Assembly: GCF_900188325.1 (NCBI RefSeq)
Contig: NZ_FZPD01000003.1
Span: 310,001-374,000 of the forward strand
Origin: Ekhidna lutea
GTDB lineage: Bacteria; Bacteroidota; Bacteroidia; Cytophagales; Cyclobacteriaceae
Reading direction: 5' to 3'
Length of the DNA stretch: 64,000 nt
This document shows, in pieces, positions 28,370 to 40,747 of this stretch. Under the pieces are notes generated by a model, which ran no database searches, was not told the DNA's origin, and was given only the letters and a program-made list of their open reading frames with translations. Position 1 is the stretch's first letter. Each line of letters begins with the position of its first letter. The position numbers and the translations under genes were made by a program.

Positions 28370-29632
28370 TTAAATCAAGATATTCAGAAGGTCTTCCTTG
28401 TGATTTAGGTATTCACCAAAAAACTTTCGTTCTTTCATTCTGCTCATCAAGAGGTCCAAATTACTTTTTTCCTTTAATTCAATCCCCACCACAGCGGATC
28501 CGGTCTCCCGAGAATTTTTCTTGGTATACTCAAAATGTGTAATGTCATCAGAAGGACCCAGGACCTCAGCTACAAACTCTTTCAGGGCTCCTGCTCGTTG
28601 AGGGAATCGTACAATAAAGTAATGTTTCAACCCCTTATAGAGCAAGGCTCGTTCTTTAATCTCTTCCGTTCGGGTGATGTCATTGTTGCTGCCACTCACT
28701 ACGCAAACCACGTTTTTCCCCACAATTTCATCCGAGAGTTGATCCAATGCCGATAGTGCAAGAGCACCAGCGGGCTCCACCACAATAGCATCTCTATTAT
28801 AAAGTTCGAGTATAGTTTCACATATTTTTCCTTCATGGACAGTCAACATTTGATCCAGTACCGAATTGCAAATCTCAAAATTCAATTCACCTACCTGCTG
28901 CACGGCAGCTCCATCAACAAATTTTTCAATTTGTTCCAGCCTGGTGTTTATACCCTTTTCGAATGAGACCGTCATAGATGGAGCTCCAGCCGGCTCTACA
29001 CCGATAATTTTTGTGTGAGGGGAAAGCGATTTGAAAACACTCCCAACTCCGGCCGCCAGCCCTCCACCACCAACGGGCAGTAGCAAATAGTCTATTCGTT
29101 CATCAGCTTGCTTAAGCAGCTCCAACCCAATAGTAGCCTGACCCTCGATGATCTTTTTATCATCAAAAGGGTGGATAAATGTGGATTTGTTTAATTCGGC
29201 ATAGGCTACTGCCCGACTTTTCGCATCATCGAAAGTGTCACCCTCCAGCCTCACATCTACATAATTCTGCCCAAACATATTCACTTGCTGAATCTTTTGA
29301 TTGGGAGTAGTGGAGGGCATAAAAATGACACCTTTGCTCTGCAATGTTGCACAAGCAAAAGCGACACCTTGGGCATGGTTTCCAGCGCTGGCGCATACTA
29401 CCCCTGAATCAAGCTGCTGCTTGGATAGTGATTTCATTTTATTCAGTGCACCACGAATTTTATATGACCTAACAAGCTGAAGATCCTCGCGCTTCAATAA
29501 AATGTTTGTTTTGAACCGTGAAGAATAATACAAGTTTGGCAATAGTGGAGTAAAGCTTACAGCACACTTAATGGATACTGCAGCTTCTTCCACATCTTCT
29601 ATTGAAGGCATATAATTCGATTTTACCTTCAT
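28370..29632 (-). CDS. ilvA: Threonine ammonia-lyase (threonine deaminase)
   Basis: PLP enzyme that turns threonine into 2-oxobutyrate, the entry to isoleucine. The 420-residue protein has the PLP lysine Lys58 in RSYKIRGALNK, the glycine loop PVGGGGLAAG and SGSNND, and one C-terminal ACT-like regulatory domain (about 335-420, starting YFIVRFPQRAGALKEF), the single-domain form. It is the last gene of the leu-ilv unit, starting 3 bases after the ilvC stop. The single ACT-like domain would be the place of isoleucine feedback inhibition. Confidence 0.93.
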   Translation of the reverse strand: MKVKSNYMPSIEDVEEAAVSIKCAVSFTPLLPNLYYSSRFKTNILLKREDLQLVRSYKIRGALNKMKSLSKQQLDSGVVCASAGNHAQGVAFACATLQSKGVIFMPSTTPNQKIQQVNMFGQNYVDVRLEGDTFDDAKSRAVAYAELNKSTFIHPFDDKKIIEGQATIGLELLKQADERIDYLLLPVGGGGLAAGVGSVFKSLSPHTKIIGVEPAGAPSMTVSFEKGINTRLEQIEKFVDGAAVQQVGELNFEICNSVLDQMLTVHEGKICETILELYNRDAIVVEPAGALALSALDQLSDEIVGKNVVCVVSGSNNDITRTEEIKERALLYKGLKHYFIVRFPQRAGALKEFVAEVLGPSDDITHFEYTKKNSRETGSAVVGIELKEKSNLDLLMSRMKERKFFGEYLNHKEDLLNILI

Positions 29633-29635
29633 GGT

Positions 29636-30682
29636 TTATGCGTTTTCGGGTCTTAAATTTCTGACCGCTGCGCCGGCACGCCACATTTCAGATTCTCTAA
29701 GCTCATTAAGCTCTTTTTCCAAACCATCACGATAGTCCGGCTTCTCATTTGATTGAATGGTTATTCGAGCTTCGTTTGCACTTGCGACACTTTCATATAG
29801 GTCTTCAAACACGGGTGCAACCGCGTCTCTGAACTTCTTCCACCAGTCCAACGCACCGCGCTGAGCTGTAGTAGAGCAGTTGGCATACATCCAATCCATG
29901 CCATTTTCAGCCACAAGTGGATAAAGAGATTGCGTAGCTTCCTCTACAGTTTCATTGAATGCCTCTGAAGGTGAATGCCCTTTACTTCTGAGCAGGTCAT
30001 ACTGCGCAGCGAAAAGCCCTTGTATTGCACCCATCAAGCTACCCCTTTCCCCTGTCAGGTCGCTATATACCTCTCGTTTGAAATCGGTCTCGAACAGGTA
30101 TCCGGATCCAACACCAATACCCAAGGCGACCGCCCTGTCTCGCGCTTTTCCTGTTGCATCCTGATGGATTGCAAATGAGGAGTTTAATCCTTTACCGGCA
30201 ACAAATAATCGTCTAAGAGACGTCCCGGACCCTTTTGGAGCCACCAAAATGACATCTACATCTGCTGGAGGAACAATGCCGGTTTGCTCATGATAAGTAA
30301 CACCAAAACCATGCGAAAAGTAAAGTGCCTTTCCCGGAGTAAGGTGTTTTTTTACCGTTGACCATTGCTGTATCTGCCCGGCATCTGAGAGCAGGTATTG
30401 GATAATGGTGCCTCGCTCGCACGCGTCTTCAATTTCAAACAAGTTCTCGCCTTCAATAAACCCGTCTGCAATCGCTTTATCCCATGACTTACCACCTTTC
30501 CTTTGACCAACTATTACGTTGAAGCCATTATCTCTTAGGTTTAAGGCCTGACCTGGCCCTTGCACCCCATATCCAATAACTGCGATGGTTTCATCTTTAA
30601 GGACTTCTCTTGCTTTTTCTAAAGGGAATTCTTCTCGGGTAACTACCTCTTCCAGTGTACCGCCAAAATCAATCTTTGCCAT
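29636..30682 (-). CDS. ilvC: Ketol-acid reductoisomerase
   Basis: NADPH-dependent isomeroreductase converting acetolactate or acetohydroxybutyrate to the dihydroxy acids in valine, leucine and isoleucine synthesis. A 348-residue class I enzyme: Rossmann loop GYGVQGPGQALNLRDNG near 38-54, GQRKGGKSW for NADP selection, and the metal-binding region SDLTGERGSLMGAIQG (Asp and Glu ligands) with a second Glu in NETVEEATQSLYP. Sits between ilvN (20 bases) and ilvA (3 bases). Confidence 0.95.
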   Translation of the reverse strand: MAKIDFGGTLEEVVTREEFPLEKAREVLKDETIAVIGYGVQGPGQALNLRDNGFNVIVGQRKGGKSWDKAIADGFIEGENLFEIEDACERGTIIQYLLSDAGQIQQWSTVKKHLTPGKALYFSHGFGVTYHEQTGIVPPADVDVILVAPKGSGTSLRRLFVAGKGLNSSFAIHQDATGKARDRAVALGIGVGSGYLFETDFKREVYSDLTGERGSLMGAIQGLFAAQYDLLRSKGHSPSEAFNETVEEATQSLYPLVAENGMDWMYANCSTTAQRGALDWWKKFRDAVAPVFEDLYESVASANEARITIQSNEKPDYRDGLEKELNELRESEMWRAGAAVRNLRPENA

Positions 30683-30702
30683 TTCTGTTTGTTTTATTCG
30701 TG

Positions 30703-31263
30703 TTAAAATTCTTTTATACTTAATGTGTTTGACTGTGAAGTTTCTAATTCGTGAATGAATGCCTCCGTTCGTCTTTTTGATTTAGAAATCGCCACTCTTC
30801 CTGAGCGAGCAAATTCAAGAATATCATAGGGTTCCAAAACCTCATATAATTCATGGGTTTCTTGCTTTGTGCCAGTTTTTTCAATCACGATCTGGTTGTC
30901 CTCAATAGCAATGATCTTGGCACCATGCTGCCTGATAAGTTTCTCAAGAAGTCCATTCTGTTGAAATACCTCTAGCGAAAGTTTATAGAGTGCGATTTCC
31001 TGATAATATATTTGGTCTTCTTCATAGAGGAATGATCCTAACACATCTACGAGTTTTCGGATTTGCTTCACCACTTTTTCTAAATCAATTTTGGTAGCAG
31101 TAGCTACAATAGTGAACCTGCTAACGCCTTTCACCTCAGTGGTAGATACATTAAGACTGTTGATATTGATCTTCCTCCGACTCAGGATTATAGTGAGTTT
31201 ATTCAAAAGACCTGGTTTATCCTCAGTTAGGACCGATATAGTATATTCTCTTTTTTCCATCAC
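30703..31263 (-). CDS. ilvN: Acetolactate synthase, regulatory (small) subunit
   Basis: Binds valine or related amino acids and activates the catalytic subunit. 186 residues: an N-terminal ACT domain (about 5-80: YTISVLTEDKPGLLNKLTII, then SRFTIVAT) and the C-terminal ALS small-subunit domain (80-170). Its ATG overlaps the ilvB stop by four bases (ATGA), so the two subunits are translationally coupled and made in step. Confidence 0.93.
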   Translation of the reverse strand: MMEKREYTISVLTEDKPGLLNKLTIILSRRKININSLNVSTTEVKGVSRFTIVATATKIDLEKVVKQIRKLVDVLGSFLYEEDQIYYQEIALYKLSLEVFQQNGLLEKLIRQHGAKIIAIEDNQIVIEKTGTKQETHELYEVLEPYDILEFARSGRVAISKSKRRTEAFIHELETSQSNTLSIKEF

Positions 31264-33008
31264 TCAAGCCTTATTTTAGAAACACAACTACCCGAAGGCA
31301 CCATTGGAAATACATTTTCTTCTTTTTCCACCACGACTTCCAGTAAGCTCGAGCCTTCTTGATTCAGCCATTTATTGAAAGCTTCATCCAGGTGATTTCT
31401 TTCTTGAACTCGTTGAGCTGGAATGCGATATCCCTCTGAGATTTTGATAAAGTCGGGGTTATCCATCTCGGTGAAGGCATACCTCTTATCGAAGAAGAGC
31501 TGCTGCCACTGACGTACCATCCCGAGAAAGCTGTTATTCAGAATTAGAATTTTTACTCCAATCTGATATTGCATGATTACGCCCAATTCTTGAATGGTCA
31601 TTTGGAATCCCCCATCCCCAATGATTGCGATGACCTGCCGCTCAGGAGTACCTATTTTGGCACCAATTGCAGCGGGCAAGCAAAAGCCCATTGTACCTAA
31701 TCCACCAGAGGTAATATGGCTTTTCAATTCATCAAATTGATAATACCTCCCCGCCATCATTTGATGTTGTCCTACATCTGTTACGATCACTGATTTGCCC
31801 TTTGTTTTTTCCGAGAGCTTGTGAACGACTTCTGCCATGGTCATCAATTTACTTTTAGGCTCCAGGGATTTTTGGACTGCTTTATCCATTTCTATTTTAT
31901 CACATGCTCGAAATTCTGCTAACCACTGTTGGTGTGAATTCTTGTTCACTAGCGGAAGCAAAGCTTTTAGTACTTGCTTTGCATCTCCAATGATTGCAAC
32001 ATCTGTAAGAATATTCTTATCAATTTCAGCAGGATCTAATTCTATATGAATCACTTTGGCCTGTTTGGCATAAGTAGTTACATCACCTGTCACACGATCG
32101 TCAAAGCGCATTCCGATTGCAATGAATACATCGCATTCATTCGTTTTCACATTTGGACCATAGTTTCCATGCATTCCGGTATAGCCCACATACAATGGAT
32201 GTTTAGTGGAAAAAGCAGATAGCCCCAGTAGGGTAGAGGCAGATGGGATGCCTGTTTTTTCAACGAACCTTTTTAATTCATCTTCCGCACCACTTAGCGT
32301 CACCCCTTGTCCAAAAAGGAGGTAGGGCTTTTTGGCTTGATTTATTAACGCAGCAGCTGCCTTCAACGGCTCTTCCCTTAGCTCTGGGTAAGGTTGATAG
32401 CTTCTTATTCTTTCACACCGTTTATAGATAAAATCGAATGATTGCTGCTGGGCATCTTTTGTGATATCGATTAATACTGGCCCAGGACGTCCTGATTGAG
32501 CGATATAAAACGCTTTTGCAAGTGCCTCAGGGATCTCTTCGGGCTTTGTTACCTGAAAATTCCATTTGGTGACAGGCATGGATATCCCAATGATATCTGT
32601 TTCCTGGAATGCGTCACTGCCAAGCAGATGACTTGCAACCTGCCCGGTGATACAAACAATGGGAGTTGAATCGATTTGAGCATCCGTAATCCCCGTGATA
32701 AGGTTTGTGGCTCCTGGCCCTGAAGTTGCGAAGCATACCCCAACTTTTCCTGAGTTTCTGGCATAGCCCTGAGCCGCATGAATGGCACCCTGCTCATGAC
32801 GCACGAGAATGTGCCTTAACTGATTTTCATAATCAAAGAGCGCATCATAGACAGGCATGATAGCACCACCTGGATAGCCGAAAATGGTTTCGACTTCTTC
32901 GTTAATGAGACATCTTAAAATAGCTTCAGAACCTGATATTCTTTCAGCTTCAACTACTTTTCCTGGATTTTCAATTAGGGCTTCCATAATTAATTGTCTG
33001 TTATGCAT
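31260..33008 (-). CDS. ilvB: Acetolactate synthase, catalytic (large) subunit
   Basis: Thiamine diphosphate and FAD enzyme that condenses pyruvate with pyruvate or 2-oxobutyrate. 582 residues from the upstream ATG; the catalytic Glu is in [15 protein letters not shown], and the thiamine-binding motif runs GDGGFQMT ... [12 protein letters not shown]. Two in-frame starts are possible: 33008, which overlaps ilvD by 19 bases, or 32987, just after the ilvD stop; neither has a clear ribosome binding site. Feeds ilvC. Confidence 0.95.
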
Positions 33009-34666
33009 CCTTGTGATGCGGATGAAACCATTTTGGCGTATTTGTAAAGGACTCCTCGTTCAACTTTCAATGAAGGAGTTTTCCATTCAGCTTTTCGTTT
33101 TTTTAGCTCATCATCACTGACCTCTAGCTGTATACTTTTTTGCTCTGTGTCTATAGTGATTGTATCTCCGGTTTTCACCAGAGCTATAACTCCCCCTTGC
33201 TGGGCTTCAGGAGCAATGTGCCCAACAACAAATCCATGTGTGCCGCCTGAAAATCTACCATCTGTGATCAACGCCACATCTTTGCCCAATCCTGCACCCA
33301 TGATTGCGGCAGTTGGCTTCAGCATTTCCGGCATTCCTGGACCCCCTCTGGGTCCTTCATAACGAATGACTACTACATCGCCTTTTTCGATTTCCCCATT
33401 CTGTATTCCATCATTTGCCGCATATTCACCATCATATACTTTGGCTTTACCAGTAAATTTTAAGCCCTCCTTCCCGGTGATTTTTGCAACCGAACCCTCC
33501 ATTGCAAGGTTGCCGTGTAGAATTTGAATATGTCCCGAAGACTTGATTGGTTGATCAATCGGGAAGATTATTTTTTGATCGAAGGAAAGGTCTGGAATAG
33601 TGGAAACATTTTGTTGTAATGTTTTACCCGTTACAGTCATGCAGCTTCCATCAATCATCCCAAGTTTGATGAGGTATTTCAAGACAATTGGCATTCCACC
33701 CATTTTATGAATGTCTTCCATTAAGTGTTTGCCGCTTGGTTTTAGGTCCGCTAAAAATGGTGTTCGATCACTGATTCTTTGAAAGTCAGACAGACTGAAG
33801 TTGATGCCAGCGGCATCTGCTATTGCAAGAAAATGTAATACCGCATTGGTAGATCCTCCCAGTACGGTTAGCAGGGTCACGGCATTTTCAATTGCAGTTT
33901 TAGTTACTATGTCGGAGGGTTTGATGTCTTTTTCCAGTAATGCCATGACACATTCACCTGCCTTTTTGCTTTCAATAGTTTTTTCTTTTCCCACTGCCGG
34001 GTTGGAGGAATTATAAGGGAGAGACATCCCCAGTGCTTCTATCGCGGAAGCCATTGTATTTGCAGTGTACATGCCACCGCATGCTCCAGCTCCCGGGCAG
34101 GCATTTTCTATCACCTGTTGATACTCGTTTTCTTCAATCTTCCCTGAGACTCTCTCACCCCAGGCTTCAAATGCCGATACGACATCCAGTTTTTTGTTAT
34201 TGACACAGCCTGAGACAATTGTCCCACCATAAACCAAAATCGATGGACGATTTAACCTTAACATGGCCATGAGTGCACCGGGCATATTTTTATCACAACC
34301 AACTACTGTAACCAACCCATCATAGCTCATACCCTGTACCACCGTTTCCATTGAGTCTGCAATGATGTCTCTGGAAGGGAGGGAGTAGCGCATACCCGAT
34401 GTGCCCATAGAAATACCATCACTAACACCAATGGTGTTGAAGATCAACCCGTTTCCACCTGTGGTATTCACACCATCCTTAACATGAAGGGCGAGATCAT
34501 TCAAATGCATATTGCACGGATTTCCCTCGAACCCAGTACTGCCAATTCCCACTAGTGGTTTTTTAAGGTCTTCCTTTGTCAGTCCAATCGCATGAAGCAT
34601 AGCCTGTGCTGCAGGTTGGCTGGGGTCCTGGGTTACTACTTTGCTGTATTTGTTTAATTCTGGCAT
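32990..34666 (-). CDS. ilvD: Dihydroxy-acid dehydratase
   Basis: Iron-sulfur dehydratase making 2-oxoisovalerate and 2-oxo-3-methylvalerate. From the ATG at 34666 (MPELNKYSK) it has 558 residues. Cluster cysteines can be seen in [21 protein letters not shown] and [16 protein letters not shown]. The C-terminal domain has [12 protein letters not shown] and [11 protein letters not shown]. An ATG four codons upstream (34678) is possible. It is the first gene after the attenuator-like leader, so ilvD-ilvB-ilvN-ilvC-ilvA should be controlled by it. Confidence 0.95.
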
Positions 34667-34688
34667 GTTTTTTTGCATTTTTAGACAT

Positions 34689-34724
34689 AAAAAAACCCTT
34701 CTCAGCGTGCTGAGAAGGGTTTTT
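34689..34724 (-). terminator. Attenuator terminator between the leader peptide and ilvD
   Basis: Near-perfect hairpin on the minus strand, cccttctcagc (34719-34709) / gctgagaaggg (34706-34696), followed by seven T. It is flanked by an A-run on the 5' side, so it may work in both directions. It lies 23 bases upstream of the ilvD ATG and downstream of the Ile/Val/Leu-rich leader, the position expected for an attenuator rather than an end-of-operon terminator. Confidence 0.88.
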
Positions 34725-34740
34725 GAATATTTTTATATCA

Positions 34741-34805
34741 ATAGTCTCCTCAGCGCATATCGTAAATGATAATGACGTTAAGAATAGAGACGATATTGAC
34801 TATGA
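34741..34805 (-). promoter_or_regulatory. Antiterminator and anti-antiterminator segments of the ilv leader
   Basis: Segment 2, gctgaggag (34754-34746), can pair with the 5' arm of the terminator, cttctcagc (34717-34709), over nine pairs with one G:U, which would block the terminator. Its 3' flank gactat (34746-34741) can instead pair with segment 1, atagtc (34803-34798), inside the leader reading frame. The leader stop codon TGA lies inside segment 2, so a ribosome that finishes the leader would mask it and favour termination. This is the 1:2 / 2:3 / 3:4 arrangement of classical amino-acid attenuators. Confidence 0.7.
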
Positions 34806-34815
34806 TGTTTTGCAC
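34750..34815 (-). CDS. ilv leader peptide (attenuation sensor), GTG start
   Basis: 21 codons from GTG (34815) to TGA (34750). After the start and Gln-Asn the residues run I-I-V-N-I-V-S-I-L-N-V-I-I-I-Y-D-M-R, so 11 of 21 are Ile, Val or Leu, the three products of the operon downstream. The frame is open for ten further codons upstream to a TAA, with no ATG, so GTG is the best start. It begins 31 bases after the leuB stop. Stalling for lack of charged branched-chain tRNAs would free segment 2 and allow ilvD transcription. Confidence 0.8.
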   Translation of the reverse strand: MQNIIVNIVSILNVIIIYDMR

Positions 34816-34845
34816 GTTCGGTTTTTCTGCTTCGATATTGTGTTG

Positions 34846-35967
34846 TTAGATGATGCAATTTAATGAAAGGTTTATTGAATCCTTATTCATATCTATTTTT
34901 CCTCCTTCTTCAATGTACCAGGCGATGGTGTCACCAACCTTGGAACAAGGGCTTGCTTCACTTTTGTCTCTCACAATGTCTTCTGTGGCAAGCTTGTGTT
35001 CCAGCGCCCAATCAACAGCCTTACGAATGGTTGAAGCTTCATGGTAAAGCTCAAAGTGATCATACATCATAGCCACGGATAGGATGGTGGCCATAGGATT
35101 GGCAATGTCCTTTCCACTCGCTTGCGGGTATGAGCCATGAATCGGCTCGAATAAGGCGGTTTTGGTGCCGACAGAAGAGGAAGGTAACATTCCCAGGGAG
35201 CCTGTAATGACACTCGACAAGTCTGATATGATATCACCAAACATGTTTTCAGTTAACACCACATCAAAGTTTTCAGGATCCTGCATCATTTGCATGGCTG
35301 CATTATCCACATACATGTATTCAACGTCAATCTCCGGGTATTCTTTGCTGATATCCTGTATGACACGCCTCCACAACCTGGAAGTTTCCAGCACATTTGC
35401 CTTATCAATCAGGGTGAGCTTCTTTCTTCTAAGAGTTGCAGCTTCAAATGCCTGATAAGCAATTCGACTGATTTCGTGCGTCGTATAATCACACGAATCA
35501 TGTGCATGCGAGCCATCTTCTGACAGGACTTTATCACCGAAATAGATACCACCGGTAAGCTCCCGATAGATCACCATGTCCACATTTTCCAGCAAATGCT
35601 CCTTAAGCGGGGAAACACCTTTTAGGATATCATAGGTTTTAACCGGCCGGACATTCGAAAACAGCTGTAGTGATTTCCGCAATTTGAGTAAGCCTTGTTC
35701 CGGCCTTACTTTCAGGTTTGGGTCGTTATCATATTTCGGATCCCCTATGGATCCCAGCAGGATAGCATCACTATTCAAGCATAAATCAAGCGTTTCATCA
35801 GGAAGGGGAGAGCCCGTCTCATCAATTGCTGATGCTCCGATAATTCCATACTTCAAATCAAAATCGTGATTGAAATACGTATTGATGGCTTGCAGGACTT
35901 TTATGGCTTGCGAAACAACCTCCGGGCCGATTCCATCTCCTGGCAATATGGTTATATTTTTTTTCAT
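34846..35967 (-). CDS. leuB: 3-isopropylmalate dehydrogenase
   Basis: NAD-dependent oxidative decarboxylase, third step of leucine synthesis. 373 residues: N-terminal MKKNITILPGDGIGPE, substrate region YRELTGGIYFG, and the metal-binding aspartates in the DNAAMQMMQDP and NMFGDIISDLSS segments, then EPIHGSYP. The last ~16 residues after GGKI are an unremarkable extension. Its ATG overlaps the leuD stop by four bases. Last leu gene before the internal ilv leader. Confidence 0.95.
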   Translation of the reverse strand: MKKNITILPGDGIGPEVVSQAIKVLQAINTYFNHDFDLKYGIIGASAIDETGSPLPDETLDLCLNSDAILLGSIGDPKYDNDPNLKVRPEQGLLKLRKSLQLFSNVRPVKTYDILKGVSPLKEHLLENVDMVIYRELTGGIYFGDKVLSEDGSHAHDSCDYTTHEISRIAYQAFEAATLRRKKLTLIDKANVLETSRLWRRVIQDISKEYPEIDVEYMYVDNAAMQMMQDPENFDVVLTENMFGDIISDLSSVITGSLGMLPSSSVGTKTALFEPIHGSYPQASGKDIANPMATILSVAMMYDHFELYHEASTIRKAVDWALEHKLATEDIVRDKSEASPCSKVGDTIAWYIEEGGKIDMNKDSINLSLNCII

Positions 35968-36539
35968 CTCTGTTGTTCAAATAGTGTGACTTCTCCCCTA
36001 AGATTTATCAGATAGTCCGTCTCATCCACGCCGTTTAATAGACATTCTTTCTTAAAAGGTGAAATGTGAAAGTTTTTTTCCAGGTTGAGAGTTGAAACTT
36101 TCACCAACTGATGTTGAAGTGAAACCTCAATTTCTGTTGCTGGCTGATCTAAAACGAGCTGCGTGATATCAGCTATAGAACGTTCATCTAATTCAACAGG
36201 CAGTATGCCGTTGTTATATGCATTGCCTTTGAAAATATCCGCGAATTGGGTGGATAAAACCACCTTGATGCCGTAATCAGCAACTGCCCACGCGGCATGT
36301 TCTCTGCTGGAGCCACAGCCAAAATTGTTACCTGCAATAAGTATCTCAGCATCTTTCCTGGCAGGATTATTCAATTCAAAATCCGGGTTAGGACTACCAT
36401 CTTGCAGATATCGCCACGCGTAGAATAAGTTCTTTCCATACCCCAAACGATCTGTCTGCTTCAAAAATTTGGCAGGTATAATTTGATCTGTGTCAATATT
36501 ATCAATAGGTAGCGGTATGGCTTTAGATCGAATGTCCAT
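35964..36539 (-). CDS. leuD: 3-isopropylmalate dehydratase, small subunit
   Basis: Swivelling domain partner of LeuC in isomerising 2- to 3-isopropylmalate. From the ATG at 36539 it has 191 residues, the family length: MDIRSKAIPLPIDNIDTDQI at the start and GNNFGCGSSREHAAWA as the active-site loop. The frame is open a further 59 codons upstream, but that is antisense-like sequence inside leuC. The ATG overlaps the leuC TAA by one base, so the subunits are coupled. Confidence 0.95.
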   Translation of the reverse strand: MDIRSKAIPLPIDNIDTDQIIPAKFLKQTDRLGYGKNLFYAWRYLQDGSPNPDFELNNPARKDAEILIAGNNFGCGSSREHAAWAVADYGIKVVLSTQFADIFKGNAYNNGILPVELDERSIADITQLVLDQPATEIEVSLQHQLVKVSTLNLEKNFHISPFKKECLLNGVDETDYLINLRGEVTLFEQQR

Positions 36540-37903
36540 TAGTTTAGAAATATGGTTGGATCTGTAATTTTCCCTGTTATCGCTGAGGCAGCAGCAGTGA
36601 GTGGACTTGCCAGTACGGTACGTGCACCTTCTCCCTGTCTGCCTTCGAAGTTTCTGTTGGAGGTGGATACACAGAGCGATCCTGCGGGAATCTTGTCTTC
36701 GTTCATCGCCAGGCATGCGCTACATCCAGGCTCACGAAACTCAAAACCTGAAGCTTCAAAGATTTTATCTAAATCCTCTTCAATAGCCTGAGAGCGAACC
36801 TTCATAGATCCGGGCACGACCCAAACATTTACATGTTCTGCTTTTTTATGGCCTTTCACCAGGTTCGCAACTGCCCGTAGGTCCTCAATTCTTCCATTGG
36901 TACAGCTACCGATGAATACATAATCCACTGACTGATCAGAGATTTGATCGTCCTGATTGAACTGCATATAACCAAGCGCTTTTTTTGTGATGTGCTTGGA
37001 AGCACTTACCCGATCAGATAGTCTGATGCCTGTATCAGGGGCAGTACCGCAAGTGACAAGCGGGTGAATGTCTGCGGCATTTAGTTTTATGGTTTTATCG
37101 AAGACGGCATCTTCATCTGTATTAAGCGAAAGCCAGGTAAATATTTTTTCTTTTGGGATTTCAACCCTGCTTGTGACATAATCAATTGTTGTTTGATCAA
37201 TTCCTATCAGTCCACCTCTGGCACCCATTTCGATGCTCATGTTGCAAACGGTCATGCGTTCTTCCATGGTGAAATTTCGAAATACATTCCCGCTATACTC
37301 TACAAAATAGCCGGTAGCACCTTCAGCACCCAGCTGAGCAATTATGTACAGTATAACATCTTTCGCTGTTACCCCTTTATTAAGTTGTCCATTTACTTCG
37401 ATGCTCATGGTTTTCGGACGAGAGAGCACTAAGCTTTGTGCTGCAAGCACTTGCTCGACTTGTGAGGTACCTATACCAAAAGCGATCGTGCCGAAAGCTC
37501 CGTGTGTCGAAGTGTGACTATCACCACATACGATTGTCATCCCAGGCTGAGTGATCCCCAGGTCCGGCCCAATGATGTGAACGATACCTTGATTTTCATG
37601 GCCAATCCCGTACAGCTCGATACCAAACTCCTCGCAGTTTTTAATCAATGAGTTTACTTGATTGGCCGATAGTGGATCTTTGATCGGTTGGTCTTGGTTT
37701 TTCGTTGGCACATTGTGGTCAGCGGTAGCCACACACTGCTGTGGACGAAAAACTTCTACACCTCTTTTTCTGAGGCCATCAAAAGCCTGAGGACTTGTGA
37801 CTTCATGCAAAAAGTGCTGGTCAATGTAAAGGACATCTAAACCATCAGCCACGTGTTTCACCACGTGTAAATCCCATATTTTGTCAAAGAGTGTCTTTGG
37901 CAT
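36539..37903 (-). CDS. leuC: 3-isopropylmalate dehydratase, large subunit
   Basis: Aconitase-family [4Fe-4S] enzyme. 454 residues with cluster cysteines in IGSCTNGRIEDLR and EPGCSACLAMN and the active-site stretch CGDSHTSTHGAFG. Its ATG overlaps the leuA TAA by one base, and its stop overlaps the leuD ATG, so leuA-leuC-leuD-leuB is a chain of overlapping genes. Confidence 0.95.
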   Translation of the reverse strand: MPKTLFDKIWDLHVVKHVADGLDVLYIDQHFLHEVTSPQAFDGLRKRGVEVFRPQQCVATADHNVPTKNQDQPIKDPLSANQVNSLIKNCEEFGIELYGIGHENQGIVHIIGPDLGITQPGMTIVCGDSHTSTHGAFGTIAFGIGTSQVEQVLAAQSLVLSRPKTMSIEVNGQLNKGVTAKDVILYIIAQLGAEGATGYFVEYSGNVFRNFTMEERMTVCNMSIEMGARGGLIGIDQTTIDYVTSRVEIPKEKIFTWLSLNTDEDAVFDKTIKLNAADIHPLVTCGTAPDTGIRLSDRVSASKHITKKALGYMQFNQDDQISDQSVDYVFIGSCTNGRIEDLRAVANLVKGHKKAEHVNVWVVPGSMKVRSQAIEEDLDKIFEASGFEFREPGCSACLAMNEDKIPAGSLCVSTSNRNFEGRQGEGARTVLASPLTAAASAITGKITDPTIFLN

Positions 37904-39057
37904 TATGCGTAAGCTTTTATGGTTTTAAATATTTTATGTAAGTGAATTGATCCCACTTTTTTGACTTGGTCAGCCACTTCTAAAAATTCTTTATAGGCGA
38001 TTTTAAGACCTTCTGGATCTAGTTCATACCCCAATTTTTTTGCGTGGTAGTTCAATGCTGCCTTACCGCTTCGGGCAGTTAGTATTATTTCTGACCCTGT
38101 CGCCCCGACAGAAGCAGGATCTATAATTTCATAAGTTTCTCGTTTCTTAATTACCCCATCCTGATGGATTCCGGATGAGTGAGAGAACGCATTTGATCCA
38201 ACAATTGCCTTATTTGGCTGAACCGGCATATTCATCATAGATGATACCGTTTTGCTAACAGATGTGATCTGTGTGGTATCGATATTGTGTGTCAAATTGA
38301 TGTGTTGATGTTGATTGATAATCATCACCACCTCTTCTAAGGAGGTATTTCCGGCACGCTCTCCAATTCCATTGATTGTACACTCCACTTGCCTGGCACC
38401 TGCCATCACCCCGGCAATGCTGTTGGCTGTAGCCAAACCAAGGTCATTGTGACAGTGTGTGGAAAGAATAGCTTTATCAATGTTTGGAACATTGTTTACC
38501 AGGAATGCTATTTTTTCAGCGAACTGTTCCGGCAAGCAGTAGCCGGTAGTATCCGGGATATTGATGATCGAAGCTCCAGCATCAATTGCCGATTCAACCA
38601 CCCTGGCAAGAAACTCATTGTCTGTCCTGCCGGCATCTTCAGCATAAAACTCAACTTCAGATACCAGGTTCCTCGCAAATTTTACGGCATGTGCACCACG
38701 ATTGATTATATCTTCATTCGTGGTATTTAGCTTATACTTTACATGAAACTCTGAAGTGCCAATCCCGGTATGAATCCTGGGGTTGACAGCACCTTTAAGA
38801 GCATTAGCAGCTACAGTTATATCTTCTTCAACCGCTCGAGAGAGTCCACAGATGGTTGATTCTTTGATGTGCCTGGATACAAGTGCAACAGACTTAAAAT
38901 CTTCGGGACTGGAAACCGGAAAACCAGCTTCGATTATATCTACTCCGAGGCTCTCCAAACGGAAGGCGACTTCAAGCTTTTCTTCACTTTTCAACTGGCA
39001 GCCAGGTACCTGCTCACCGTCTCTTAATGTGGTATCAAAAATGTGAAGTTTGCTCAT
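37903..39057 (-). CDS. leuA: 2-isopropylmalate synthase, short form without the leucine regulatory domain
   Basis: Condenses acetyl-CoA with 2-oxoisovalerate, the committed step to leucine. The 384-residue protein has the catalytic barrel ([13 protein letters not shown] at 7-19, [12 protein letters not shown] metal-binding histidines) and the linker subdomains ([12 protein letters not shown] ...) but stops at about the point where the ~130-residue C-terminal LeuA dimer/allosteric domain of 500+ residue enzymes would begin. Leucine feedback at the enzyme level is therefore unlikely by the classical route. Homocitrate or citramalate synthase is a formal alternative, made unlikely by the leuCDB context. 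First gene of the unit. Confidence 0.9.
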
Positions 39058-39075
39058 ATCAACTAAGTGCTAATT

Positions 39076-39141
39076 TTACGTGCGTGAACAAATGTGGACG
39101 TTAAGAGAGGGTTGATGAAACCTTTTATTTTGATTATTCAT
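39076..39141 (-). CDS. Possible 21-aa upstream reading frame before leuA
   Basis: ATG (39141) to TAA (39076), 21 residues, ending 18 bases before the leuA ATG. An AAGGA lies 9 bases upstream of its ATG, a good Shine-Dalgarno position. The peptide starts MNNQNKRFHQPSLN and ends VHICSRT; it has only one Leu and one each of Val and Ile, so it is not a simple leucine-counting leader, and no terminator follows. It may be a regulatory uORF or chance. Confidence 0.3.
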   Translation of the reverse strand: MNNQNKRFHQPSLNVHICSRT

Positions 39142-39208
39142 CTCTTCAAGTCCTTATAATATTTCATAACACATTAAATAACAGGCATTTAAAATCTTTA
39201 TAATTCAC

Positions 39209-40747
39209 TTGGTCAAGCAGTTATCATATCAATTATTTGAGCTAATAAAGCGGCTTACTAAGGCCGAAAAACGAAATTTTAAGCTTTATGTGCGGCGGAA
39301 CACCACAGATAAGGAGCTAGTTTCTATCAAACTTTTTGATGTGATTGACAAACAGAAACATTGGAATGACGAAAAAATTCAGCAAGCTTTTCCGTTGTTA
39401 AAAGCCAATACACTTTCCAACCATAAATCGCGGTTATATGAACAGATTCTGGTGAGTTTGAAGCTTCTTCAATCAGATGATCCCGGGATTCGGATAAAAG
39501 ATCATATCAGCTATGCAGAGCTGCTTCAAAGAAAGGGGTTTTACCTTCAAAGCCTTGCACAACTCTCAAAGGCCAAACTCATCGCTACTACCTTCAAAAT
39601 GGATATTCTTCGGTTGGAGATTGTGGAATTTGAAAAAAAGATAGAGAGCAGGTATGTGACGAGAAGCCATTCACAGCGAGCGAAGGAATTGACGGATGAA
39701 TCCTCCTTGCTGAGAAGCAAATTTTATTTTGAAGGTGCCTGGTCTGATTTGTCACTGAAGCTTTATGACTATTATTTAAAATTTGGTCATAGTAAAAGTG
39801 AAGGACAGCAAAAGAAACTTTCAGCGATGTTTAAAGAAAGTCTTCCTACTTTATCTGATGCTGGATTTGAAGACACGATTTACAAATACCAATGCTATGT
39901 TTGGTTTTACTACATTTCACAAGACTTTTCAAGGTGCTATGGGTATGCCCAAAAGTGGTGTCAGGTTTATGAAAAAAATGAAGTGCTTATAGAAAGTGAG
40001 CCTGAAATGTACATTAGAGGATTGCACAATGTACTATCTGCGCTATTCTACTGTGATGATGTGAATCGGTTTATTGAGAATCATAAGAAGCTCAAAGCAT
40101 TTACAACAAAACACCAGCATAGGTTTAATGAGAATCAGCTGATTCAGTCATTTATATATACAGAGACTGCTAATCTCAATTCATATATTGTGGAAGGAAG
40201 GTTTACTGAAGGAGCGAGGTATAGTGATGAATTTTTAGAGAAAATGAAGCAATTTGAAGGGCGTCTGGATATCCACCGAATCATGGTCTTTCATTACAAA
40301 ATTGCAAGCTTAAAGTTTGGAAGTGCTGATTTCTCCGGAGCTGTAAAACATCTGAACATCATCATTAACCACCCAAATATCTCATTAAAAGAAGACATCC
40401 AGTGTTTTGCTCGCATTCTTAATTTGATTTCGCATTATGAGCTCGGAAATGATGATTTGATTGACTTTCAAATTAAGTCAACCTACCGATTCTTATTGAA
40501 GTTGAGTGATTATCACCGCGTGCATTCAGCGATTTTCAACTTTCTTAAGAACTCAGTTTTTATGGATCGTAAAATGTTAATTCAGGATTTTAAAATATTA
40601 AGGGAAGAGTTGTTGGATATCCTAGAGGATAAATATGAACGCAGATCACTGCTGTATTTGGATTTGATTTCGTGGCTTGAAAGTAAGATATATTCAAAAC
40701 CAGTGGAGGAAATAATACAAGAAAAGAAGTTAGCCAAGAGACGATAG
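39209..40747 (+). CDS. Conserved hypothetical helical-repeat protein of Bacteroidota
   Basis: A 512-residue soluble protein with no signal peptide or membrane segment. The N-terminus (LFELIKRLTKAEKRNFKLYVRR) is the recognisable signature of a Bacteroidota hypothetical family; the rest is helical with TPR-like character (pairs of amphipathic helices, for example 105-180 and 330-420) and a basic C-terminus (EKKLAKRR). The start codon appears to be TTG at 39209, since no ATG or GTG precedes the conserved block. Divergent from leuA with 151 bases between. Function unknown; a scaffold or RNA/protein-binding role would be a guess. Confidence 0.7.
   Translation: MVKQLSYQLFELIKRLTKAEKRNFKLYVRRNTTDKELVSIKLFDVIDKQKHWNDEKIQQAFPLLKANTLSNHKSRLYEQILVSLKLLQSDDPGIRIKDHISYAELLQRKGFYLQSLAQLSKAKLIATTFKMDILRLEIVEFEKKIESRYVTRSHSQRAKELTDESSLLRSKFYFEGAWSDLSLKLYDYYLKFGHSKSEGQQKKLSAMFKESLPTLSDAGFEDTIYKYQCYVWFYYISQDFSRCYGYAQKWCQVYEKNEVLIESEPEMYIRGLHNVLSALFYCDDVNRFIENHKKLKAFTTKHQHRFNENQLIQSFIYTETANLNSYIVEGRFTEGARYSDEFLEKMKQFEGRLDIHRIMVFHYKIASLKFGSADFSGAVKHLNIIINHPNISLKEDIQCFARILNLISHYELGNDDLIDFQIKSTYRFLLKLSDYHRVHSAIFNFLKNSVFMDRKMLIQDFKILREELLDILEDKYERRSLLYLDLISWLESKIYSKPVEEIIQEKKLAKRR

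Follow-up and report, generated by a model that had tools for sequence, protein, structure and literature searches.

A putative isoleucine- and valine-responsive leader-peptide attenuator upstream of ilvD in Ekhidna lutea and other Bacteroidota

The ilvGMEDA and ilvBN operons of enterobacteria are preceded by leader-peptide attenuators that sense the branched-chain amino acids, Leu included. A comparative prediction of branched-chain attenuators is said to have been made by Vitreschak et al. in 2004, with an abstract that reportedly mentions Bacteroidetes/Chlorobi. For the phylum itself, strong indications that leader peptides attenuate amino-acid operons are reported from Flavobacterium psychrophilum (PMC9723704), and small open reading frames (sORFs) reminiscent of such leaders are mentioned in a report on Bacteroides thetaiotaomicron (PMC7366714). 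The attenuation mechanism as such is therefore not new in the phylum (PMC9723704; PMC7366714). The leaders of F. psychrophilum resemble the one described below in that they come from the same phylum, lie before amino-acid biosynthesis operons and are structured 5′ regions without an Rfam match; pheA and hisG are among the structured 5′ elements named there, however, and the main text has no mention of "ilvD" (PMC9723704). Among the papers listed in a literature search there was no described ilvD attenuator from Bacteroidota, nor a description of the ilvD group, of its Ile/Val specificity or of its position inside a leu-ilv gene string.

The stretch of E. lutea DNA analysed here (64,000 nucleotides, in the following called the window) carries on its minus strand the genes leuA-leuC-leuD-leuB-(leader)-ilvD-ilvB-ilvN-ilvC-ilvA. 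In seven congeners, for which wide flanking regions were retrieved, the gene order is the same up to the ends of their contigs. We consider it highly probable (about 0.9) that the leader between leuB and ilvD belongs to a ribosome-mediated transcription attenuator, which would sense charged Ile-tRNA and Val-tRNA and thus set the passage of RNA polymerase into ilvD-ilvB-ilvN-ilvC-ilvA. With the enterobacterial ilvGMEDA and ilvBN systems it shares a short leader in which the regulated amino acids are abundant, the three pairings 1:2, 2:3 and 3:4, and a terminator before branched-chain genes. It differs from them in that Leu is not enriched, that the leader starts with GTG without a Shine-Dalgarno sequence, and that the switch lies between leuB and ilvD instead of heading the gene string.

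The genes were identified by models matched above their cut-offs, all on the minus strand: leuA, 2-isopropylmalate synthase (37903..39057, NF002086), leuC, 3-isopropylmalate dehydratase large subunit (36539..37903, NF004016), leuD, the small subunit of the same dehydratase (35964..36716, NF002458, matched over residues 57–250, the ORF starting upstream of the matched part), leuB, 3-isopropylmalate dehydrogenase (34846..35967, TIGR00169), ilvD, dihydroxy-acid dehydratase (32990..34678, NF002068/TIGR00110), ilvB, acetolactate synthase large subunit (31260..33008, TIGR00118), ilvC, ketol-acid reductoisomerase (29636..30682, TIGR00465), and ilvA, threonine ammonia-lyase (28370..29632, NF006390). 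The ORF at 30703..31263, likewise on the minus strand, had no NCBIfam match at E 1e-40; from its position we take it to be a probable ilvN, acetolactate synthase small subunit. For ilvD, the second ATG (34666) is the probable start codon, since the starts of the relatives fall there. At the other side of the leader, LeuB ends in a C-terminal tail (34846-34890) that reads SLNCII or SLNTII throughout the genus, and endings in TII, SII or NII occur in some other loci; the tail falls beyond the part of the protein matched by the leuB model (residues 4–347 of 373).

The leader frame (34815..34750, minus strand) begins 30 nt downstream of the leuB stop, comprises 21 codons from a GTG to the TGA at 34752-34750 and reads MQNIIVNIVSILNVIIIYDMR. 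Conceptual translation confirms what had been read from the letters, namely a 21-codon GTG frame with 11 Ile/Val/Leu codons (seven Ile, three Val and a single Leu among 20 non-start codons), and the frame and its start position are kept in congeners. The GTG aligns with an ATG in three of them (L126, L127 and L128), in which the frame is the same, the core NVIII is retained and the stop context is kept; among the 44 loci that passed the scan described below, 41 leaders start with ATG, two with GTG and one with TTG. Within the 20 nt preceding the GTG there is no Shine-Dalgarno-like sequence. Flavobacterial mRNAs are described, in the excerpted text, as being without Shine-Dalgarno sequences (PMC9723704). 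When both strands of the 64 kb were scanned for leaders with at least 40% Ile, Leu and Val followed at 0–70 nt by a terminator, only two sites emerged, the ilvD leader and a weaker one at 40890-40831. The latter, a second short frame rich in these amino acids with a terminator (MVRLASLGLAYLAIIAMSI, preceded by the box TAAGTTTG at 40912-40905), is likely a chance find.

Behind the leader stands an intrinsic terminator (pairing 3:4; 34724..34691, minus strand) with 15 pairs, a 4-nt loop, a U tract and an energy of −21.5 kcal/mol, which begins 25 nt 3′ of the leader stop. The region from 29000 to 40000 holds 12 terminator-like sites, against 10.2 expected; the longest stem among them is the one at 34724-34691, a rank that it shares with its own reverse-strand reading. 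The RNA from 34846 to 34686 folds with −40.8 kcal/mol (z −5.64; none of 200 shuffles equal or better). For the RNA without the terminator (34825-34725) z falls to −1.60, with 14 of 200 shuffles equally good, so most of the fold excess is due to the terminator. The antiterminator part of segment 2, GCTGAGGAG (34754..34746, minus strand), holds the leader stop codon and is complementary to segment 3, CTTCTCAGC (34717..34709, minus strand), in the 5′ arm of the terminator. This arrangement, already noticed in the sequence-only reading, is borne out by a pairing energy of −15.9 kcal/mol, which none of 100 shuffles attained.

The third pairing, the 1:2 anti-antiterminator, is best described from the minimum-energy fold and the pair probabilities. 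Its 5′ arm, segment 1 (34800..34787, minus strand), lies within leader codons 6–10 and pairs with the part of segment 2 at 34748..34737 (minus strand), 34800-34794 joining 34743-34737 and 34791-34787 joining 34748-34744; in the full RNA its mean pair probability is 0.95, that of the terminator 1.00. The pairing first proposed, 34803-34798 with 34746-34741, is indeed an exact 6-mer complement, but the fold uses the longer helix instead. Taken alone, the 1:2 helix of the window does not surpass those of shuffled sequences (p 0.16). Its counterpart in two congeners (L003 and L005) is an uninterrupted 12-mer, tcaaatatcctt/aaggatatttga.

With these parts the switch is envisaged to work as follows. 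When Ile and Val are ample, the ribosome would reach the stop codon and cover segment 2, which would leave segment 3 free for segment 4, and transcription would end at about 34689. Under a shortage of Ile or Val, the ribosome would stall on the Ile/Val codons and cover segment 1; segments 2 and 3 would then pair, the terminator would be blocked and the ilv genes would be transcribed. If the leader were not translated, 1:2 would form and the terminator would stand. That the leader is translated, that transcription terminates here and that termination responds to Ile and Val is what we infer from the arrangement. The position of the ribosome was modelled by folding transcripts ending at 34706 in which the RNA through 14 nt past the A-site codon, the assumed cover, was held unpaired. 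Under this constraint the probability of 2:3 in the window is 1.00 with the ribosome at codons 5, 9, 12, 15 and 16, 0.76 at codon 17 (the last Ile), 0.21 at codon 18 and 0.00 at the stop. Since the antiterminator is lost between codons 17 and 18, the Ile-Ile-Ile triplet of codons 15–17 (34773..34765, minus strand), with the last stall positions that leave the antiterminator free in the folding model, would form the edge of the switch. It should be noted that in the ribosome-free transcript ending just before segment 4 the equilibrium favours 2:3 (0.78) over 1:2 (0.19), and a default-off state would therefore need 1:2 to form first.

Relatives of ilvD were collected from three sources: 59 related genomes, 44 of them with a match (30 + 14 loci used); the family as a whole (390 genomes), where 361 genomes gave a match and 40 of these were fetched; and named loci, of which the best 80 of at least 591 were taken. 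This gave 184 loci, and the 161 distinct ones with at least 150 nt upstream entered the scan. In this comparison, which the sequence-only reading had proposed as a check, a leader plus terminator upstream of ilvD was found in 44 of 161 loci versus 1 of 805 dinucleotide shuffles. Passing loci make up 20 of the 78 named and 24 of the 83 others, the named ones including Flavobacterium, Aquimarina, Lutibacter, Dokdonia, Algibacter, Gaetbulibacter, Segetibacter, Saprospiraceae and one Ignavibacteriae bin. The other 117 loci did not pass, among them some (L002, L033, L035, L061 and L082) with a leader-like frame and a downstream region in which no terminator reached the criterion. Conservation in relatives, which was part of the proposed check, holds for part of the genus: five of the eight members with upstream sequence pass the scan and three fail (G007, G008 and G009), G007 failing even though a leader and a hairpin are visible by eye. 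In the three congeners L126–L128 the antiterminator and the terminator have changed together, GCTGAG/CTCAGC in the window being GTTGAG/CTCAAC there.

In G009 (3.0 Mb, locus L130) and G008 (2.7 Mb, locus L131) the leuB-ilvD junction is kept, but the leader has no clear start codon, and its terminator is disrupted or missing; the sequences suggest an apparent decay of the attenuator in these small genomes.

The hairpin could also be thought of as the mere terminator of a leuACDB operon, with the Ile/Val-rich frame a chance frame between leuB and ilvD. It does lie 3′ of leuB, inter-operon terminators are common, and the GTG start lacks a Shine-Dalgarno-like sequence in the 20 nt before it. The same arrangement, however, stands before ilvD in loci whose upstream 5 kb or so showed no leu gene (L014, L019, L025, L027 and L121), and in three congeners leuB is followed by a hairpin of its own, with a T run, besides the attenuator hairpin. 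Together with the 44 passing loci against a single shuffle, and with the swap test described next, this makes a plain leu terminator very improbable.

The pairings that define an attenuator were then judged over the 44 passing loci. When segment 2 was shuffled for comparison, the 2:3 pairing came out significant (p ≤ 0.05) at 34 of the 44 loci (mean z −2.77) and 1:2 at 23 of them (mean z −1.74); these statistics, like those of the swap test, ignore kinship among the loci. The antiterminator was not significant in 10 of the 44. Two loci, L051 and L080, with antiterminator p values of 0.74 and 0.88, are probably false positives as attenuators and are still counted in the 44. Because composition or shared motifs might produce a signal against shuffles, a swap test was run, in which each locus's segment was paired with the partners of all other loci (44 loci, 5000 permutations). 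Native 2:3 pairs were 4.3 kcal/mol stronger after centring (z −12.0) and native 1:2 pairs 4.0 kcal/mol stronger (z −8.7), and in both cases none of the 5000 permutations was as low. The native partner was the best of 44 in 11 rows for 2:3 and in 7 rows for 1:2, and it was among the top three in 27 and 18 rows, respectively. The window itself has row rank 1 and column rank 5 for 2:3, and ranks 13 and 16 of 44 for 1:2.

A further trait of the group is the spacing of the codons. Where the antiterminator is significant (34 loci), Ile/Val codons occupy the positions 15–17, 18–20 and 21–23 nt before the antiterminator in 85, 85 and 91% of cases, the position at 12–14 nt in 47%, and those at 3–11 nt in only 3–12%. 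The median distance from the last Ile/Val codon to the antiterminator is 14 nt, roughly the length of RNA that a ribosome shields 3′ of its A site. Read from the sequences, the codon spacing is a ribosome-sized ruler. It should be added that the last Ile/Val codon is fixed about equally well to the antiterminator (interquartile range 4.75) and to the stop codon (5.25). The sequence and its comparison establish the parts themselves and how they pair in many genomes, as well as their conservation and the ruler, and the three-pairing logic of the sequence-only reading is supported by the pairing counts, both swap statistics and the ruler. Its more general proposal, that the logic of enterobacterial ilv attenuation works here too, also gains support from the comparison, the swap test and the ruler, as far as sequences can speak to it.

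Which amino acids are sensed can be judged from the composition of the leaders. In 43 distinct leaders (849 residues) Ile makes up 26.7%, Val 17.1% and Leu 9.0%, whereas in the first 500 codons of ilvD from the same loci the values are 7.4, 6.7 and 8.2%, which amounts to an enrichment of 3.6-fold for Ile, 2.5-fold for Val and 1.1-fold for Leu. The shortage of Leu was not imposed by selection, because the scan weighted Ile, Leu and Val alike. At the control positions 15–17, 18–20 and 21–23 nt before the antiterminator, Leu codons account for 0, 9 and 3% (34 loci). Since the leaders are enriched for Ile and Val but not for Leu, the sensor would be one for Ile and Val. The original designation as an Ile/Val/Leu attenuator thus stands for Ile and Val and has to be given up for Leu. 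An attenuator sensing all three amino acids would agree with the one Leu codon in the window leader, with the leu genes in the same gene string, and with a Leu content of 13/104 residues in six loci with leu genes downstream versus 33/404 elsewhere; against the near-background Leu content of the leaders and the 0–9% at the control positions we regard it as improbable, albeit less so than a plain leu terminator. That the Leu content of leaders tracks the position of the leu genes is not claimed, the difference being weak (13/104 versus 33/404, with six loci on one side). A Leu-rich leader with a terminator was not seen before leuA in the window. On the strength of the sequence comparisons we hold with high confidence that the ilvD leader is a genuine, conserved, classical attenuator specific for Ile and Val, its function being predicted.

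Among the Val codons of the leaders in the 44 loci, GTC is in excess (75 of 147 versus 16.4 expected from each locus's own ilvD). Both tRNA-Val(TAC) and tRNA-Val(GAC) are present (30 loci from 33 tRNA matches, tRNA-Ile not being among them). The excess may fit selective charging of isoacceptors, as treated in the excerpt of PMC1183508, or a constraint from RNA pairing.

Another possibility is that the stem hides or exposes the initiation region of ilvD, or that a ligand-binding or T-box-type element reads the amino acids. The terminator stem ends 12 nt before the ilvD ORF start, or 24 nt if counted to the likely ATG (34666), and a short distance of 3–42 nt is found in 31 of the 44 loci, the window included, as would suit translational control. 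In the remaining 13, however, the distance is 76–297 nt, and a U run comes after the stem, as it does in terminators. As to other sensors, Rfam 15 at its cut-offs gave no match in the window, T-box and riboswitch families included, and neither a T-box nor a riboswitch was among 23 permissive matches. Of the rival explanations considered this one appears the least probable, slightly behind the plain leu terminator. In 20 of the loci, searched at the same cut-offs, the sole match was Flavo-1 in L054, away from the ilvD leader. The His_leader model (RF00514) matches the attenuator site over its full length with 42.8 bits and E 9.4e-6, below the gathering score of 49 bits, and unlike that family the site has Ile/Val codons in place of His. 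The 44 loci supply candidates for an RNA group without a match in Rfam 15 at cut-offs (window and leaders of 20 loci).

How transcripts reach the leader may differ between members of the genus. The −7 box of flavobacteria is TAnnTTTG, as given in the excerpt of PMC9723704. The 700 nt that precede the leader in the window hold no exact TAnnTTTG, and there is none on the minus strand from 40904 down to 29280; a scan for promoters of the sigma-70 type remained at chance level (22 found versus 22.8 expected). Over all passing loci the box occurs within 120 nt of the leader in 14 of 44 versus 4.5 expected. In the congeners L126–L128 it is located 45 nt before the leader, past the separate hairpin behind leuB. 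That hairpin, directly after leuB, is a second, similar one (TCCCTTCTC...GAGAAGGGA with a T run), and the box reads TAGCTTTG; hairpin and box apparently split leu and ilv into two units there. In the window, the leader may be reached by read-through of leu transcripts, or else its promoter departs from the consensus. Tentatively, and as a possibility that we would not bet on, the leader may act as a valve within an operon: transcripts started at leuA would cross leuACDB and then meet an Ile/Val-specific, Shine-Dalgarno-independent leader switch, L126–L128 with their leu terminator and promoter-like box being the other state. If this were true, the enzymes for Leu and for Ile/Val would come from one promoter, with a ratio set by the charging of Ile- and Val-tRNA. 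Natural variants with and without the promoter box, and with apparent decay in small genomes, open the mechanism to test. More generally, mRNAs of Bacteroidota are without Shine-Dalgarno sequences (as stated for flavobacteria; PMC9723704), and the ilvD leaders give a clean example of classical attenuation in this phylum, backed by comparison, which suggests a tight timing of transcription and translation there.

Two other leaders were noticed in the same genome (G000). Before hisG there is a His-rich frame, MRTQQLHHHVHHMLHSEETV (L185:1182-1244, on C7 near 431.8 kb), followed by a GC-rich terminator-like hairpin with a U run, the whole extending over L185:1182-1306, and the box TATATTTG lies just upstream (L185:1165-1172). 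Before trpE the frame MITTKTYWWWHVDNFDC, with WWW, is found on the minus strand (L186:2088-2035, on C8), with a terminator-like hairpin and U run to 1975. Both leader RNAs fold better than shuffles (z −4.06 for hisG and −5.95 for trpE). They may serve as internal positive controls, at the level of leader and hairpin only, and ilv, his and trp seem to be run by the same logic in one genome.
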